Source: Polyangiaceae bacterium (GTDB lineage Bacteria; Myxococcota_A; Polyangia; Polyangiales; Polyangiaceae). Taken from it: 64,000 nucleotides of DNA. Under the pieces are notes generated by a model, which saw only the letters and a program-made list of their open reading frames with translations, was not told the origin of the DNA and did not search any database. Where the stretch lies: positions 1-64,000 of the forward strand of contig JAICQO010000018.1 in NCBI GenBank assembly GCA_025937835.1, read 5' to 3'. The translations under genes were made by a program, and so were the position numbers. Positions 8,099 to 22,296 of the stretch are shown one piece after another; the first letter of the stretch is position 1; each line of letters begins with the position of its first letter.

Positions 8099-9608
8099 GG
8101 CCGAGCACCCGGACTCGGAAGCCGAGCTCCTGGCTCAGCGCCACCATCTCACCGAACACGTCGCCGTACGCGACCGCCACGTGGTTCGACTGGTAGTGCG
8201 CCATCAAGGTGTCGCGGTCGACTCCCAGGTCCGCGGCCATGAACGGCCACTCGCGCGTCGTGCCCTTCCACCAGGCGTCGCGCTTCTCCGGCGGCAGCTT
8301 CACGACCTCACCGCGGCCGACGTCCATCCACAGCACGTCGTTCTTGATGTAGGCGCGCGCCCAGGTGATTTCTCCAGGCAAGCTCTCGCCGGCGAAGGTG
8401 CCGCCGGGGGTCGGGAAATACAGCGCGGGCTGACGATAACTGTGCGCGCCCTTCAGCGTGCTCGGATCGTGGTTGAACGCGTACGCTCCGCAAGACCCCG
8501 AGTTCAAGAGCACCCACAAGAACCGTCCGTCGTGCTCGGCTCCCCAGCGCACGTCGTGAAACATCACGGCCTGGTGCAGCCCTTTGTCCTTGAGCAGCCG
8601 CTTCAACATCTCCATCGGCACCACGTTGCCCTGGTCGGCTTCAGTGGCGCAGGCGATGGTGTCTCCGTCGGTCTCGGGGCGAGCGCTCGAGTTGAAGAGA
8701 CCCTCCGCGAGATCGGACGGCGGGCGCAGCGGGATCAGGCCGAGCTGGTACTGCCAGCCCAGGCAATCCGCGCCGAACTCGCGCATCAAGTCGAGCACGA
8801 CCAGGTAGTCGCGGAGCTGCTCGCGTGTGGCCTGCTCCGTGAAGTCCTTGGCATCGCCTTCGCCCCAGTGAAAGACGACGCCCTTGTCCTTCACGAATGC
8901 GAGGGCGTCCGAGATGCGCTGCTCGCTGATGGTGCGCCCGCGATCGATGATCCACGCCTGGTCGATCTTGTGCTCGGCGAACGCGTGCTTGGACAGCAAC
9001 CGCGGCCCGAAATAACCGTTGATCATGCCCATCGAGGTGTCGCCGAGCATCAAGATCAGCGGACGGCGCCGCTGGATCTCGGCCGCCACTTTGCGGGCCC
9101 GGGCGGAGGCCGACTCCGAGATCGGCGCGTGATAGCGGATGCCGTCTTCGGCGTAGGGGATCGCTCCCGAAGAACACCACGTGTCGAGCCGCTCCATGAA
9201 CTGCGGATCGGCCGAGAAGTCTTCGGAGCTGGTCCAGACGCGCGAGTGCTTACGGTTCAAGCTCTCGAGGCAAGCGCCCGTGTTGAGCAAGCCGACGAGG
9301 CCCGGCCAGCGCCCGGAGAAATTGCTCGCGAGCAGCAGCGGGTTGTCCTTGCCCAGCACGCCGTCGCAGGTGTGCGGGCCGTACACCCAGTGCACGAATA
9401 CGCCGACCGTCGGATCGTCGATCGGCCCGAGCTTGTCGCGCGACTCGTGCGGCTTGCTGAGGAAACCCTCGACGCGGTAAGGCTCGCGGCCGAGCTTCTT
9501 CAGCGCGCGCTCGATCTGGACCGTGGCGGCTTCGATATTCGGAAGCGCCAACTCGTTGGGTTTCGCGCGCGCGTCACCCGGCCAATACACCGCGACTTTT
9601 TTCGACAT
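8088..9608 (-). CDS. L-fucose/L-arabinose isomerase-fold protein
   Basis: 506-residue cytoplasmic protein that I place in the fucose-isomerase-like family, whose members convert aldoses to ketoses with a bound divalent metal. The N-terminal half has alternating Rossmann-like beta/alpha units (VAVYWPGDAR, VGVFVHWVYG, LILMLGDTSMGMINGYFGP). The C-terminal half holds the family-like sequence YAFNHDPSTLKG and a late HYQSNHVAVAYGD that could supply a metal-binding His. E. coli FucI is longer (about 590), so this is a shorter divergent member. An AGGAG ribosome site lies inside an inverted repeat just upstream (9609-9638). Proximity to the sugar importer and a xylulokinase 13 kb away suggests sugar catabolism, but the substrate is unproven. 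Confidence 0.75.
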   Translation of the reverse strand: MSKKVAVYWPGDARAKPNELALPNIEAATVQIERALKKLGREPYRVEGFLSKPHESRDKLGPIDDPTVGVFVHWVYGPHTCDGVLGKDNPLLLASNFSGRWPGLVGLLNTGACLESLNRKHSRVWTSSEDFSADPQFMERLDTWCSSGAIPYAEDGIRYHAPISESASARARKVAAEIQRRRPLILMLGDTSMGMINGYFGPRLLSKHAFAEHKIDQAWIIDRGRTISEQRISDALAFVKDKGVVFHWGEGDAKDFTEQATREQLRDYLVVLDLMREFGADCLGWQYQLGLIPLRPPSDLAEGLFNSSARPETDGDTIACATEADQGNVVPMEMLKRLLKDKGLHQAVMFHDVRWGAEHDGRFLWVLLNSGSCGAYAFNHDPSTLKGAHSYRQPALYFPTPGGTFAGESLPGEITWARAYIKNDVLWMDVGRGEVVKLPPEKRDAWWKGTTREWPFMAADLGVDRDTLMAHYQSNHVAVAYGDVFGEMVALSQELGFRVRVLGRDG

Positions 9609-18927: not shown

Positions 18928-19901
18928 GACGCTCTCCCAAGTTGAGCCCGTTGCTCGTCTTCGGCGCGAACCGTCGAGACGAACGCGTCTTCTACCGTAG
19001 CTCGCACGACGCGCGCGCTGACGAGCCCTATCCCCGCCGCTTCGAGCCGGGCGCGAACCCAGGTTTCCACGTCGGACACGCCGCGGGTCGCGATCCGGAT
19101 CCGGTGCCCGAGGTGCATCACCTCGTCCGTCTCCGGCAGCTTGCGGAGCTCGTCCGCAGCGCGCACCGGCGCGGCCACCTCGGCCTCGAGCACCGACAAC
19201 GAACGCGCGGCCACCACCTCTTCGGGCGTGCCGACGCTCAGCAAGCGCCCGTTGAAGATGAAGGCCAGCCGGTGGCAGCGCTCGGCTTCGTCCATGTAGT
19301 GCGTGGTGACGAGCACGGTGGTGCCCTCGGCGGCGATGCGGTGGATCTGATCCCAAAACTGCCGCCTGCTGACCGGGTCGACGCCCGCGGTCGGCTCGTC
19401 GAGGAACAACAGCGGAGGCTCGTGAATGGTTGCGCTCGCCAGGGCCACGCGCTGCTTCCAGCCGCCGGACAGCGTGCCGGCGAGCTGCTTGCGCCGCGGC
19501 AAGAGGCCCGACGCCTCGAGCACTTTCTCGATGCGGGCGCGCCGGGCGGCGAACGAAAGACCGTAAATGCCGGCGTAAAACCGCAGGTTCTCCTCGACGC
19601 TCAAGTCCTCGTACAGGCTGAAGCGCTGGGTCATGTAGCCGATGCGCTCCTTGATGCGTTCCGGCTCCTTCTGGATGTCGTAGCCGACGACCGTGCCCCG
19701 CCCGCCGCTAGGGTCGAGGATGCCGCACAGCATGCGAATCGTCGTCGACTTGCCGGCGCCGTTCGGGCCGAGCACGCCGAAGATCTCGCCGCGGTGTACC
19801 TCTAGCGAGACGTCGCGCACGGCGACGAGCTCCCCGAAGCGCCGCTCGAGGTGCTCGGTGCGGATCACGACCTCGGGCGCGGGGGCCGGGGTCTGCGTCA
19901 T
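18924..19901 (-). CDS. ABC exporter ATP-binding protein
   Basis: 325 residues with a single nucleotide-binding domain. Walker A GPNGAGKST (about 45-53), Q-loop region near YMTQRFSLYEDLSVEEN, signature LSGGWKQRVALASA and Walker B PPLLFLDEPTAGVDP, with the switch His in LVTTHYMDEAERC. The C-terminal 90 residues form a regulatory extension. It is of the drug/multi-protein exporter type (YbhF/CcmA-like, but with one domain rather than YbhF's two). ATGA overlap with the fusion-protein gene and GTGA overlap with the permease show it is the middle gene of a tight operon. Confidence 0.95.
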   Translation of the reverse strand: MTQTPAPAPEVVIRTEHLERRFGELVAVRDVSLEVHRGEIFGVLGPNGAGKSTTIRMLCGILDPSGGRGTVVGYDIQKEPERIKERIGYMTQRFSLYEDLSVEENLRFYAGIYGLSFAARRARIEKVLEASGLLPRRKQLAGTLSGGWKQRVALASATIHEPPLLFLDEPTAGVDPVSRRQFWDQIHRIAAEGTTVLVTTHYMDEAERCHRLAFIFNGRLLSVGTPEEVVAARSLSVLEAEVAAPVRAADELRKLPETDEVMHLGHRIRIATRGVSDVETWVRARLEAAGIGLVSARVVRATVEDAFVSTVRAEDEQRAQLGRAS

Positions 19902-20899
19902 GGCGCGCTCGCGCTGGGTGAAGCGGCGGCGCCGCGACTCGAGATCGCGACGAACGCGGGCGTCCCGGCGTGGAGCCGCTCGCGCGCGTCGTCGATACGG
20001 ATGCGTACGCGCGCCACGAGCGCCGCGCGCTCGCGCTCACTGAACACGAAGCGCGGCGTGAACTCGAGCTCGCGCGCGATGTGCTCGACGCGACCCGAAA
20101 GCGCGGCCGGCTCGGCATCGACGCGCACCTGGGCCTTGCCGCCCACGGCGATCCCGCCGAGCTCCGCCTGCGGCACGAACACATCGACGTGCGGCCGCAG
20201 CGTATCGCCCACGGTCATGATCGGCATCCCGGCCACCGCGACCTCACCGGGCTCGACGTGAACGTCCAGCACCGTGGCAGCCAGCGGTGCGCGCAGCACC
20301 GTGCGCGCGATGCGCTGATCGGTGAGCGCGAGCTGGGCGTCGGCCGCGTCGGCTCGCGCGGCGGCACCCGCGCGTTCTTCCCGCCGCGCGCCCTTCCGCA
20401 GCGATGCTGTCTGCGCCTCGGCCGACTCGCGCTCGGCCCGTGCGCGAGAGAGCTCGGCCTCGAGCTGATCGACGGAAGCTTGGGGAACGGCGTTCTGTTG
20501 GAACAGCGTGCGCTCACGGGCCAGGTTCTTCTCGAGCAGCTGCTCCGTGGCGCGCGCGGCGCGGGCGCGTGCAGCGAGCACGGCCACGTCCTCGCGCCGA
20601 GCGCCGGCGTCGGTGAGCGCAGACTGGGCGTGCTGTGCCTCGGCCTCGCGAGCCTGCGTCACACGCTCGGCCTGGAGCAGGTCGTCGTCGAGCGAGGCCA
20701 CGATCGCGCCGTGCGTGACGCGGTCGCCCTCGTCGAACAGCACCCGCTCGATGCGGCCACCCGCTTCGAAAGCGAGCGTGACCTCCTCGAGCTCGATCAC
20801 GCCCTGATAGGGAAACGGCAGCGGCTCGGCAGCGCGCGCACGCTCGCAGCCGCCGAGGAACCACGCGCCGAGCAGCAGAGCGACGTAGTTTTTTATCAT
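19898..20899 (-). CDS. HlyD-type membrane fusion lipoprotein of an ABC exporter
   Basis: 333 residues. Signal peptide with lipobox LGGC (Cys about 18), a barrel-sandwich lipoyl-like segment split in two (AGGRIERVLFDEGDRVTHGAIVASLDDD near the start and RTVLRAPLAATVLDVHVEPGEVAVAG near residue 210), and a long Ala/Glu/Arg coiled-coil hairpin between them (about 85-200). This is the YbhG/EmrA-like adaptor that links an inner-membrane exporter to the outer membrane. First gene of the operon; no TolC gene is nearby. Its short upstream region is AT-rich (20906-20920) and shared divergently with ahpC. Confidence 0.92.
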   Translation of the reverse strand: MIKNYVALLLGAWFLGGCERARAAEPLPFPYQGVIELEEVTLAFEAGGRIERVLFDEGDRVTHGAIVASLDDDLLQAERVTQAREAEAQHAQSALTDAGARREDVAVLAARARAARATEQLLEKNLARERTLFQQNAVPQASVDQLEAELSRARAERESAEAQTASLRKGARREERAGAAARADAADAQLALTDQRIARTVLRAPLAATVLDVHVEPGEVAVAGMPIMTVGDTLRPHVDVFVPQAELGGIAVGGKAQVRVDAEPAALSGRVEHIARELEFTPRFVFSERERAALVARVRIRIDDARERLHAGTPAFVAISSRGAAASPSASAP

Positions 20900-21010
20900 G
20901 CGACCAATAATAAACTCATTCCCCTATCTCGGCCAATCGGCCCGGATCGCGTTAAATCTCCCTCCGCGCGCCCGCAAACGGATGCCGGTCGGGGATTGAC
21001 TCCGTAGAGA

Positions 21011-21027
21011 TTTAGATTAAGTCTAAA
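21011..21027 (+). promoter_or_regulatory. Palindromic box upstream of ahpC
   Basis: Perfect 6-base arms TTTAGA and TCTAAA separated by TTAAG, 47 bases before the ahpC start and in an AT-rich island. A TTGACT at 20996-21001 just upstream could be a -35 element, which would place the box over the promoter. The layout resembles Fur-family (PerR/Irr-like) boxes of the form TTTAGAAnnnTTCTAAA, but the assignment to a regulator is inferred. Confidence 0.55.
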
Positions 21028-21074
21028 CGGCGCCGCACGGATCAGAGCCGGCGGTAGCCAAGGAGACAAAGACC

Positions 21075-21626
21075 ATGATCAGCCCCGGTTCCCAGTTGCC
21101 CGAGTTCGCCGTTCCCGCAGTCGTCAGCCTCGAGAAAGGCAAGGAGTTCGAGACGATCAGCTCGAAGTCCTACCCGGGCAAGTGGCTCGTGATCTACAGC
21201 TACCCGAAGGACTTCACGTTCGTCTGCCCGACCGAGATCGTCGATTTCGACAAGAAGCTCGGTGATTTCGCGGATCGTGACGCAGTGGTGCTCGGAGGCT
21301 CGACCGACAACGAGCACTCGCACCTCGCGTGGCGTCAGAACCACGCCGACCTCAAGGGTCTCAAGCACCCGCTCTTGTTCTTCTCGCCCGCGTTCGCCCA
21401 GGCGCTCGGCATCGTGCACCCCACCGCCGGCGTGGCGCTGCGCGCGACGCTGATCGTCGATCCCCAGGGCGTGGTCCGCTTCGCCAGCGCCAACGACCTC
21501 AACGTCGGTCGCAACGTCGACGAAGTGTTGCGTGTCCTCGACGGCCTCCAGACGGACGAGCTCTGCCCGTGCAACTGGAAGAAGGGCGAAGAGACCCTCA
21601 CGCAGCAGATGAAGAAGACGGGCTGA
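21075..21626 (+). CDS. ahpC: Alkyl hydroperoxide reductase C (peroxiredoxin)
   Basis: Thiol peroxidase that reduces H2O2, organic peroxides and peroxynitrite. 183 residues. Peroxidatic Cys51 sits in DFTFVCPTE. The C-terminal DELCPCNWKKGEETL has Cys164 and Cys166, the arrangement of actinobacterial AhpC proteins that are reduced by AhpD instead of AhpF. An AGGAG ribosome site precedes ATG 21075. ahpD follows 127 bases downstream, supporting that pairing, and a palindromic box lies upstream. Confidence 0.96.
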   Translation: MISPGSQLPEFAVPAVVSLEKGKEFETISSKSYPGKWLVIYSYPKDFTFVCPTEIVDFDKKLGDFADRDAVVLGGSTDNEHSHLAWRQNHADLKGLKHPLLFFSPAFAQALGIVHPTAGVALRATLIVDPQGVVRFASANDLNVGRNVDEVLRVLDGLQTDELCPCNWKKGEETLTQQMKKTG

Positions 21627-21753: not shown

Positions 21754-22296
21754 ATGGACGCGACACCCCTCCACCGAATTCGCGAAGCCCTGCCGGAAGC
21801 GGCCAAGGACATCAAGATCAACCTCGGCAACGTGCTCCAGCCGGGCGCGCTCAATCAAGCGCAGGTGTTCGGGGTCGCGCTCGCCAGCGCCTACACGTCC
21901 CGCAATGCCGAGCTCGTGACGGCGCTGGTGGCGGAGGCGCGCGCCGCGGACGTGGCTCCCGGAGTGATCGAGGACGCGAAGGCCGCGGCCGTGCTGATGG
22001 GCATGAACAACGTGCTGTACCGCTTCAAGCACGTGCTCGGAAAAGACGACTACCAGCAGCGCCCGGCCAAGCTCCGCATGCAACGCCTGGCTCAGGTGGC
22101 GACCAGCAAGGCCGACTTCGAGCTCTACTGCCTCGCGGTGAGCGCGATCAACAATTGCCAGACCTGCATGGCCTCGCACGAGGCGAGCGTGCTCCAGCAC
22201 GGGCTCACGGCGGACCACGTCTGGGACGCGGTGCGCATCGCCTCCACCGTGAACGCCGCCGCGATCGGCCTCGAGGTCGCCGAGCAGAGCCCGTAG
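21754..22296 (+). CDS. ahpD: Alkyl hydroperoxidase D
   Basis: Carboxymuconolactone-decarboxylase-fold thiol protein that reduces AhpC, or acts as a peroxidase itself. 180 residues. Catalytic CXXC is Cys135/Cys138 in NNCQTCMASHE, with His142 four residues later and Glu123 twelve before Cys135. This matches the E-C-C-H proton relay of mycobacterial AhpD. Ribosome site AGGAAA precedes ATG 21754. Same-strand order with ahpC supports a functional pair, with dihydrolipoamide the usual electron donor (known for the family; not visible here). Confidence 0.95.
   Translation: MDATPLHRIREALPEAAKDIKINLGNVLQPGALNQAQVFGVALASAYTSRNAELVTALVAEARAADVAPGVIEDAKAAAVLMGMNNVLYRFKHVLGKDDYQQRPAKLRMQRLAQVATSKADFELYCLAVSAINNCQTCMASHEASVLQHGLTADHVWDAVRIASTVNAAAIGLEVAEQSP

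Follow-up and report, generated by a model that had tools for sequence, protein, structure and literature searches.

The palindrome upstream of ahpC and ahpD is very probably the operator of P0001, a cysteine-free PerR-type repressor of the Fur family encoded in the same genome. From sequence comparisons, we propose that the metal-bound PerR would repress ahpC-ahpD and perR-dps and that peroxide would release it. We hold this reading to be very probable because the same site precedes the repressor's own gene and also recurs ahead of corresponding genes in bacteria both close and remote.

Palindrome and promoter of ahpC-ahpD

We refer to the whole 64-kb stretch of DNA analyzed as the window. 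A sequence check placed the palindrome TTTAGATTAAGTCTAAA, with exact TTTAGA/TCTAAA arms, at positions 21011 to 21027 of the + strand. The first-pass annotation had reported this palindrome, a 47-base gap between it and ahpC, and a neighboring TTGACT, and all three observations were borne out (exact arms, ATG of ahpC at 21075, TTGACT at 20996 to 21001). The features of the locus are as follows.

20996..21001, + strand: TTGACT, probable -35 element, starting 23 bases before the box center in a register conserved in relatives
21011..21027, no strand assigned: TTTAGA-n5-TCTAAA, putative PerR-type operator (sequence, genome scan, and conservation before ahpC and perR in relatives)
21012..21026, inside the palindrome: 7-1-7 core TTAGATT-A-AGTCTAA, centered at 21019
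21019..21024, + strand: AAGTCT, possible -10 element in the right half of the box, with a 17-bp spacer and a poor match to TATAAT, assigned from spacing only
21060..21065, + strand: AAGGAG, probable ribosome-binding site of ahpC (sequence)
21075..21626, + strand: ahpC, AhpC/TSA-family peroxiredoxin, 183 aa (Pfam AhpC-TSA, 95.2 bits; cutoff, 26)
21754..22296, + strand: ahpD, alkylhydroperoxidase of the AhpD family, 180 aa (TIGR00778 core domain, Pfam CMD)

The possible -10 element at 21019 to 21024 was not reported by a consensus promoter scan. The ahpC product scored 119 bits against the NCBIfam AhpC equivalog, below the cutoff of 272, and the ahpD product scored 151.7 bits against TIGR00777, below the cutoff of 191.95, and 36.5 bits against the AhpD core domain TIGR00778, above the cutoff of 27.8. 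We found no terminator-like site on the + strand between 20700 and 22450, and ahpC and ahpD are probably cotranscribed.

A divergent gene of the HlyD type (19898 to 20899, - strand) has a promoter-like site of its own, TTGGCC-18-TATTAT, at 20936 to 20907. The -10 element of this site ends 7 bases ahead of the ATG, so the message may be leaderless. We do not favor this gene as a second target of the box, its promoter-like site lying about 75 bases away.

We then evaluated the palindrome against shuffled sequences. It is the sole match in the window, even when 2 mismatches are allowed, and shuffles of the window gave a mean of 0.14 matches at up to 2 mismatches, with at least one match in 14 of 100. 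The 175-bp intergenic stretch upstream of ahpC, in which the palindrome lies, has a GC content of 57% overall; 6-5-6 dyads arose in 5.5% of its 2,000 dinucleotide shuffles and any 6-n(3-9)-6 dyad arose in 28%. Palindromy by itself is thus not significant, and the evidence is the second site in the genome together with conservation. Within the 7-1-7 core, the symmetry of the arms TTAGATT and AGTCTAA is broken by one pair (T against G). No repeats of at least 10 bases were reported in positions 20890 to 21075, and Rfam gave no match over the window at gathering thresholds.

A second site precedes the gene for a PerR-type protein

We scanned the host genome (6,922,069 bases, 95.76% complete) for TTTAGA-n5-TCTAAA, allowing 1 mismatch, and found one further site, namely, TTTAGACTCAGTCTAGA on another contig (C21:9519-9535). 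It ends 4 bases (5 bases for the 7-1-7 core) before the ATG, at 9540, of the gene for P0001, a Fur-family protein of 139 aa, and dps comes next on the same strand. When the pattern of the 7-1-7 register, TTAGACTNAGTCTAA, was used for site searches, the sites before ahpC and before the P0001 gene were the only two in the host genome at up to 2 mismatches. Both have 1 mismatch, and the next eight sites have 3, with seven of these eight falling within open reading frames 150 codons or more in length.

The first-pass annotation had advised looking for the box near catalase and fur genes. The box is indeed present before the PerR-type fur gene of the host. For catalase genes the outcome was divided: the box precedes katG in two relatives (G038 and G180), but none was found within about 300 bp upstream of the match to the only catalase of the host, whose genome gave no PF00141 match for katG.

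We then analyzed the sequence of P0001. A Fur-family domain is present (Pfam FUR, 69.6 bits; cutoff, 23.1), and the best relatives of solved structure are Leptospira PerR (5nl9, 1.3e-17) followed by Bacillus subtilis PerR (2fe3, 1.5e-13). A gap-free alignment matched H34, N58, D82, H88, H90, and D101 of P0001 with H37, N61, D85, H91, H93, and D104 of the B. subtilis protein, so that all six residues are kept, and they are invariant in 17 aligned orthologues. They include all five ligands of the regulatory metal (H34, D82, H88, H90, and D101), and N58 and D101 stand at the positions of N61 and D104, which PMC8638851 presents as the canonical residues that distinguish PerR from Fur. P0001 contains no cysteine and so differs from B. 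subtilis PerR, whose structural-zinc cysteines it lacks; the site with two CxxC motifs is absent. According to PMC8638851, both Leptospira PerRs are without the cysteinate motif, and the CxxC zinc site is therefore not required for a PerR.

P0001 scores below the cutoffs of all curated PerR models, which are narrow (PerRB, 85.1 of 250 bits; PerRA, 85.0 of 200; PerR [NF052545], 73.1 of 180), and also below those of the Irr models (IrrA, 85.6 of 150; Irr, 81.6 of 170).

Irr, Fur, and OxyR as alternatives

We considered whether an Irr-type sensor of iron or heme, and not a peroxide sensor, controls ahpC according to iron or heme status. P0001 matches IrrA as well as it does PerRB and PerRA, the three models being tied at about 85 bits. 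VYN and the Asp are likewise found in Irr-type proteins of Rhodoblastus, which have no CxxC motif; because these residues are shared, N58 and D101 provide no grounds for setting Irr aside. The Irr box, with its TTAGAA half-sites, resembles the box studied here, and TTAGAA-type boxes do occur in a few relatives. Against this, a tree placed the Irr-like proteins in a group of their own (99/94) and P0001 in another (95/94), with bootstrap support that is not fully settled. A true Irr from Rhodoblastus (L179) reached 152 bits on the IrrA model, just over the cutoff, a score far from that of P0001, and the genes found in company with the box are ahpC, ahpD, dps, and katG. On balance we judge control by Irr unlikely. 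The first-pass annotation had read the box as similar to those of PerR or Irr: the PerR half is supported by the box before a PerR-type gene in the host and before perR, ahpC, or katG in relatives, and the Irr half is disfavored by gene company and by the tree.

TTAGAA-type half-sites (TTAGAACGATTCTAA and similar) were seen before a few perR-type genes (L055 of G018, L122, and L149). Their closeness to the Irr box suggests, at the level of sequence, half-site switching within the group of P0001-type regulators.

The host genome encodes a second Fur-family protein (contig C188), and Fur boxes are likewise of the 7-1-7 type, so we also weighed binding of this classical Fur paralogue to the box, which would make ahpC answer to iron. 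The paralogue has VYR, ITEF, and CxxC motifs and is thus of the Fur type, with the classical recognition-helix Arg and Glu ligand where P0001 has Asn and Asp. The box, however, precedes the PerR-type gene and co-occurs with perR orthologues, and the contig of the fur gene, where the first-pass annotation had suggested looking, has no site at up to 3 mismatches. We regard this possibility as very improbable.

A chance palindrome, with ahpC under other control such as that of OxyR, is just as improbable: shuffles do yield such dyads and the host has LysR-family proteins, with 14 matches to the OxyR model, but the box is conserved before ahpC orthologues and has a copy before perR, the best OxyR match reaches 107.5 bits against a cutoff of 329 (a model that could miss a diverged OxyR), and the window has no OxyR-type site at up to 3 mismatches.

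Conservation within the order

We looked into the placement of the box in 183 genomes of the order and found 29 sites at up to 1 mismatch in 25 genomes, 6 of which belong to one genus (g15), so that the relatives are not mutually independent. Two of these sites are the host's own. The reversed pattern, used as a control, gave 32 sites, and since the real count shows no excess over it, the placement of the sites is informative and not their number. In this respect, 28 of the 29 sites precede perR, ahpC, or katG, and the gene arrangements found behind the boxes are perR alone, perR-ahpC, perR-dps, ahpC-ahpD, and katG (G038 and G180). Absence of the box from relatives, named in the first-pass annotation as a finding that would speak against it, is thus not what we observed.

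The katG frame of G038 (L105, 664 to 2901) encodes a catalase-peroxidase (NCBIfam, 1107 bits; cutoff, 770), and that of G180 (L097, from 1544) begins with nearly the same N-terminal residues. No box precedes the perR gene of G038 or that of G058. A 1-mismatch box in G027 (L100, position 1509) has no recognized peroxide gene nearby, and the next sizeable frame downstream encodes a cytochrome c.

Among the ahpC orthologues, those of G001, G004, G005, G006, and G027 have the box at up to 2 mismatches, at a distance of 64 to 84 bases upstream of the match, and those of G002 and G018 have it with 3 mismatches. Tandem boxes were seen before ahpC in G005 (L006) and G006 (L007), the second box having 3 mismatches and the centers lying 17 bp apart.

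Co-occurrence of the box with a perR orthologue was evaluated in the 23 genomes (of 59) whose AhpC reaches 50% identity or more, and a box was counted when it had no more than 3 mismatches. A box at the head of ahpC or perR-ahpC was present in all 9 genomes with a perR orthologue versus 2 of the 14 without (Fisher P, 6.7e-5). For ahpC alone, the counts were 6 of 9 versus 2 of 14 (Fisher P, 0.023). G001 and G004 have the box before ahpC, and no perR orthologue was found in their assemblies, which are 84% and 88% complete.

The box in distant phyla

A profile search of named genomes returned at least 80 perR-like relatives from many phyla, and we examined 79 of them. Among the matches listed, 37 of the 79 perR-like genes had a box in the 150 bp preceding them when up to 3 mismatches were allowed; in the same set, 100 shuffled half-site palindromes gave a mean of 0.8 and at most 7. 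Likewise among the matches listed, 31 relatives had at least 50% identity, of which 18 had the box, 13 a nearby ahpC, and 7 a nearby dps, and many loci below 45% identity had no box. The box is present without any mismatch in Acidobacteriota (L121) and Melainabacteria (L144 and L148). The perR promoter sequence of G005 is identical to that of a Polyangiaceae metagenome-assembled genome (L110), an identity that would place the window within or close to the Polyangiaceae of the Myxococcota.

In perR loci of Zixibacteria and Elusimicrobia (L129, L134, L136 to L138, L140, and L146), we observed a site like CTTGACATTGTCTAA, which has 4 mismatches to the consensus and coincides with the -35 element.

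Promoter design

We aligned 34 sites from the order and 31 from named genomes on the box center. TTGAC is conserved at -23 to -19 (29, 30, 29, 26, and 28 of the 34 sites of the order; 26, 26, 28, 24, and 18 of the 31 from named genomes), and the TTGACT of the window, already pointed out in the first-pass annotation, sits exactly in this -23 register. TC is conserved at -14 and -13 (28 and 31 of 34; 22 and 26 of 31). The geometry of the box is repeated around -17, with GAC at -21 to -19 and GTC at -15 to -13. At -17, the mean dyad score was 3.8/7 in the perR promoters (n = 23), 2.6 in the ahpC/katG sites (n = 11), and 2.7 in the distant set. Scores at the remaining centers mostly ranged from 0.8 to 2.4; the exceptions were side peaks of the box near +3/-3 and, in the perR set, a value of 3.0 at -20. 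The ahpC promoter of the window scored 3/7 at -17. From these -17 scores, a second operator fused with the -35 element is plausible for perR, and for ahpC it is unproven. The perR message may be leaderless, since its start codon closely follows the box.

Whether these features amount to a common design is, in our estimate, an even question. Under such a design, a clade of cysteine-free PerRs from Myxococcota, Planctomycetota, Acidobacteriota, Krumholzibacteriota, Melainabacteria, and others would share the operator TTAGACTNAGTCTAA and a fixed promoter, in which the box lies over the -10 side, the -35 TTGAC is merged with a second, weaker dyad of the same geometry whose center lies 17 bp upstream of that of the box, and perR is often transcribed without a leader. 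The box would have moved onto the -35 element in Elusimicrobiota and Zixibacteria.

Proposed mechanism and relation to known systems

For the host, we infer that a PerR dimer carrying Fe(II) or Mn(II) would bind the operator just downstream of the TTGAC -35 element, over the spacer and the -10 region. With the promoter so covered, RNA polymerase would be kept off ahpC-ahpD and perR-dps. Peroxide would oxidize a His ligand of iron-bound P0001, as in known PerR proteins, and the oxidized P0001 would let go, allowing AhpC, AhpD, and Dps to be made.

The B. subtilis PerR box, TTATAATNATTATAA, has the 7-1-7 form in common with the host box, and the half-sites differ (TTAGACT here versus TTATAAT in B. 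subtilis). Alphaproteobacterial Irr is, like P0001, a cysteine-poor Fur-family protein with VYN and Asp, no CxxC motif, and a related TTAGAA box, but it belongs to a separate tree group, keeps other gene company, and has GAA in its half-site where GACT is found here. At the protein level, PerRA (5nl9) and PerRB of Leptospira resemble P0001 in being cysteine-free with the canonical N and D (PMC8638851), and they differ from it in phylum and in lying on another branch of the tree. Searches of the open-access literature listed no study of a PerR operator from Myxococcota, which is not proof that none exists.

The predicted regulon in the host genome consists of ahpC-ahpD and perR-dps. With a putative operator and regulator defined and a small regulon predicted, peroxide control would become directly testable in Myxococcota, and the box motif could be used for annotating peroxide regulons across several little-studied phyla.
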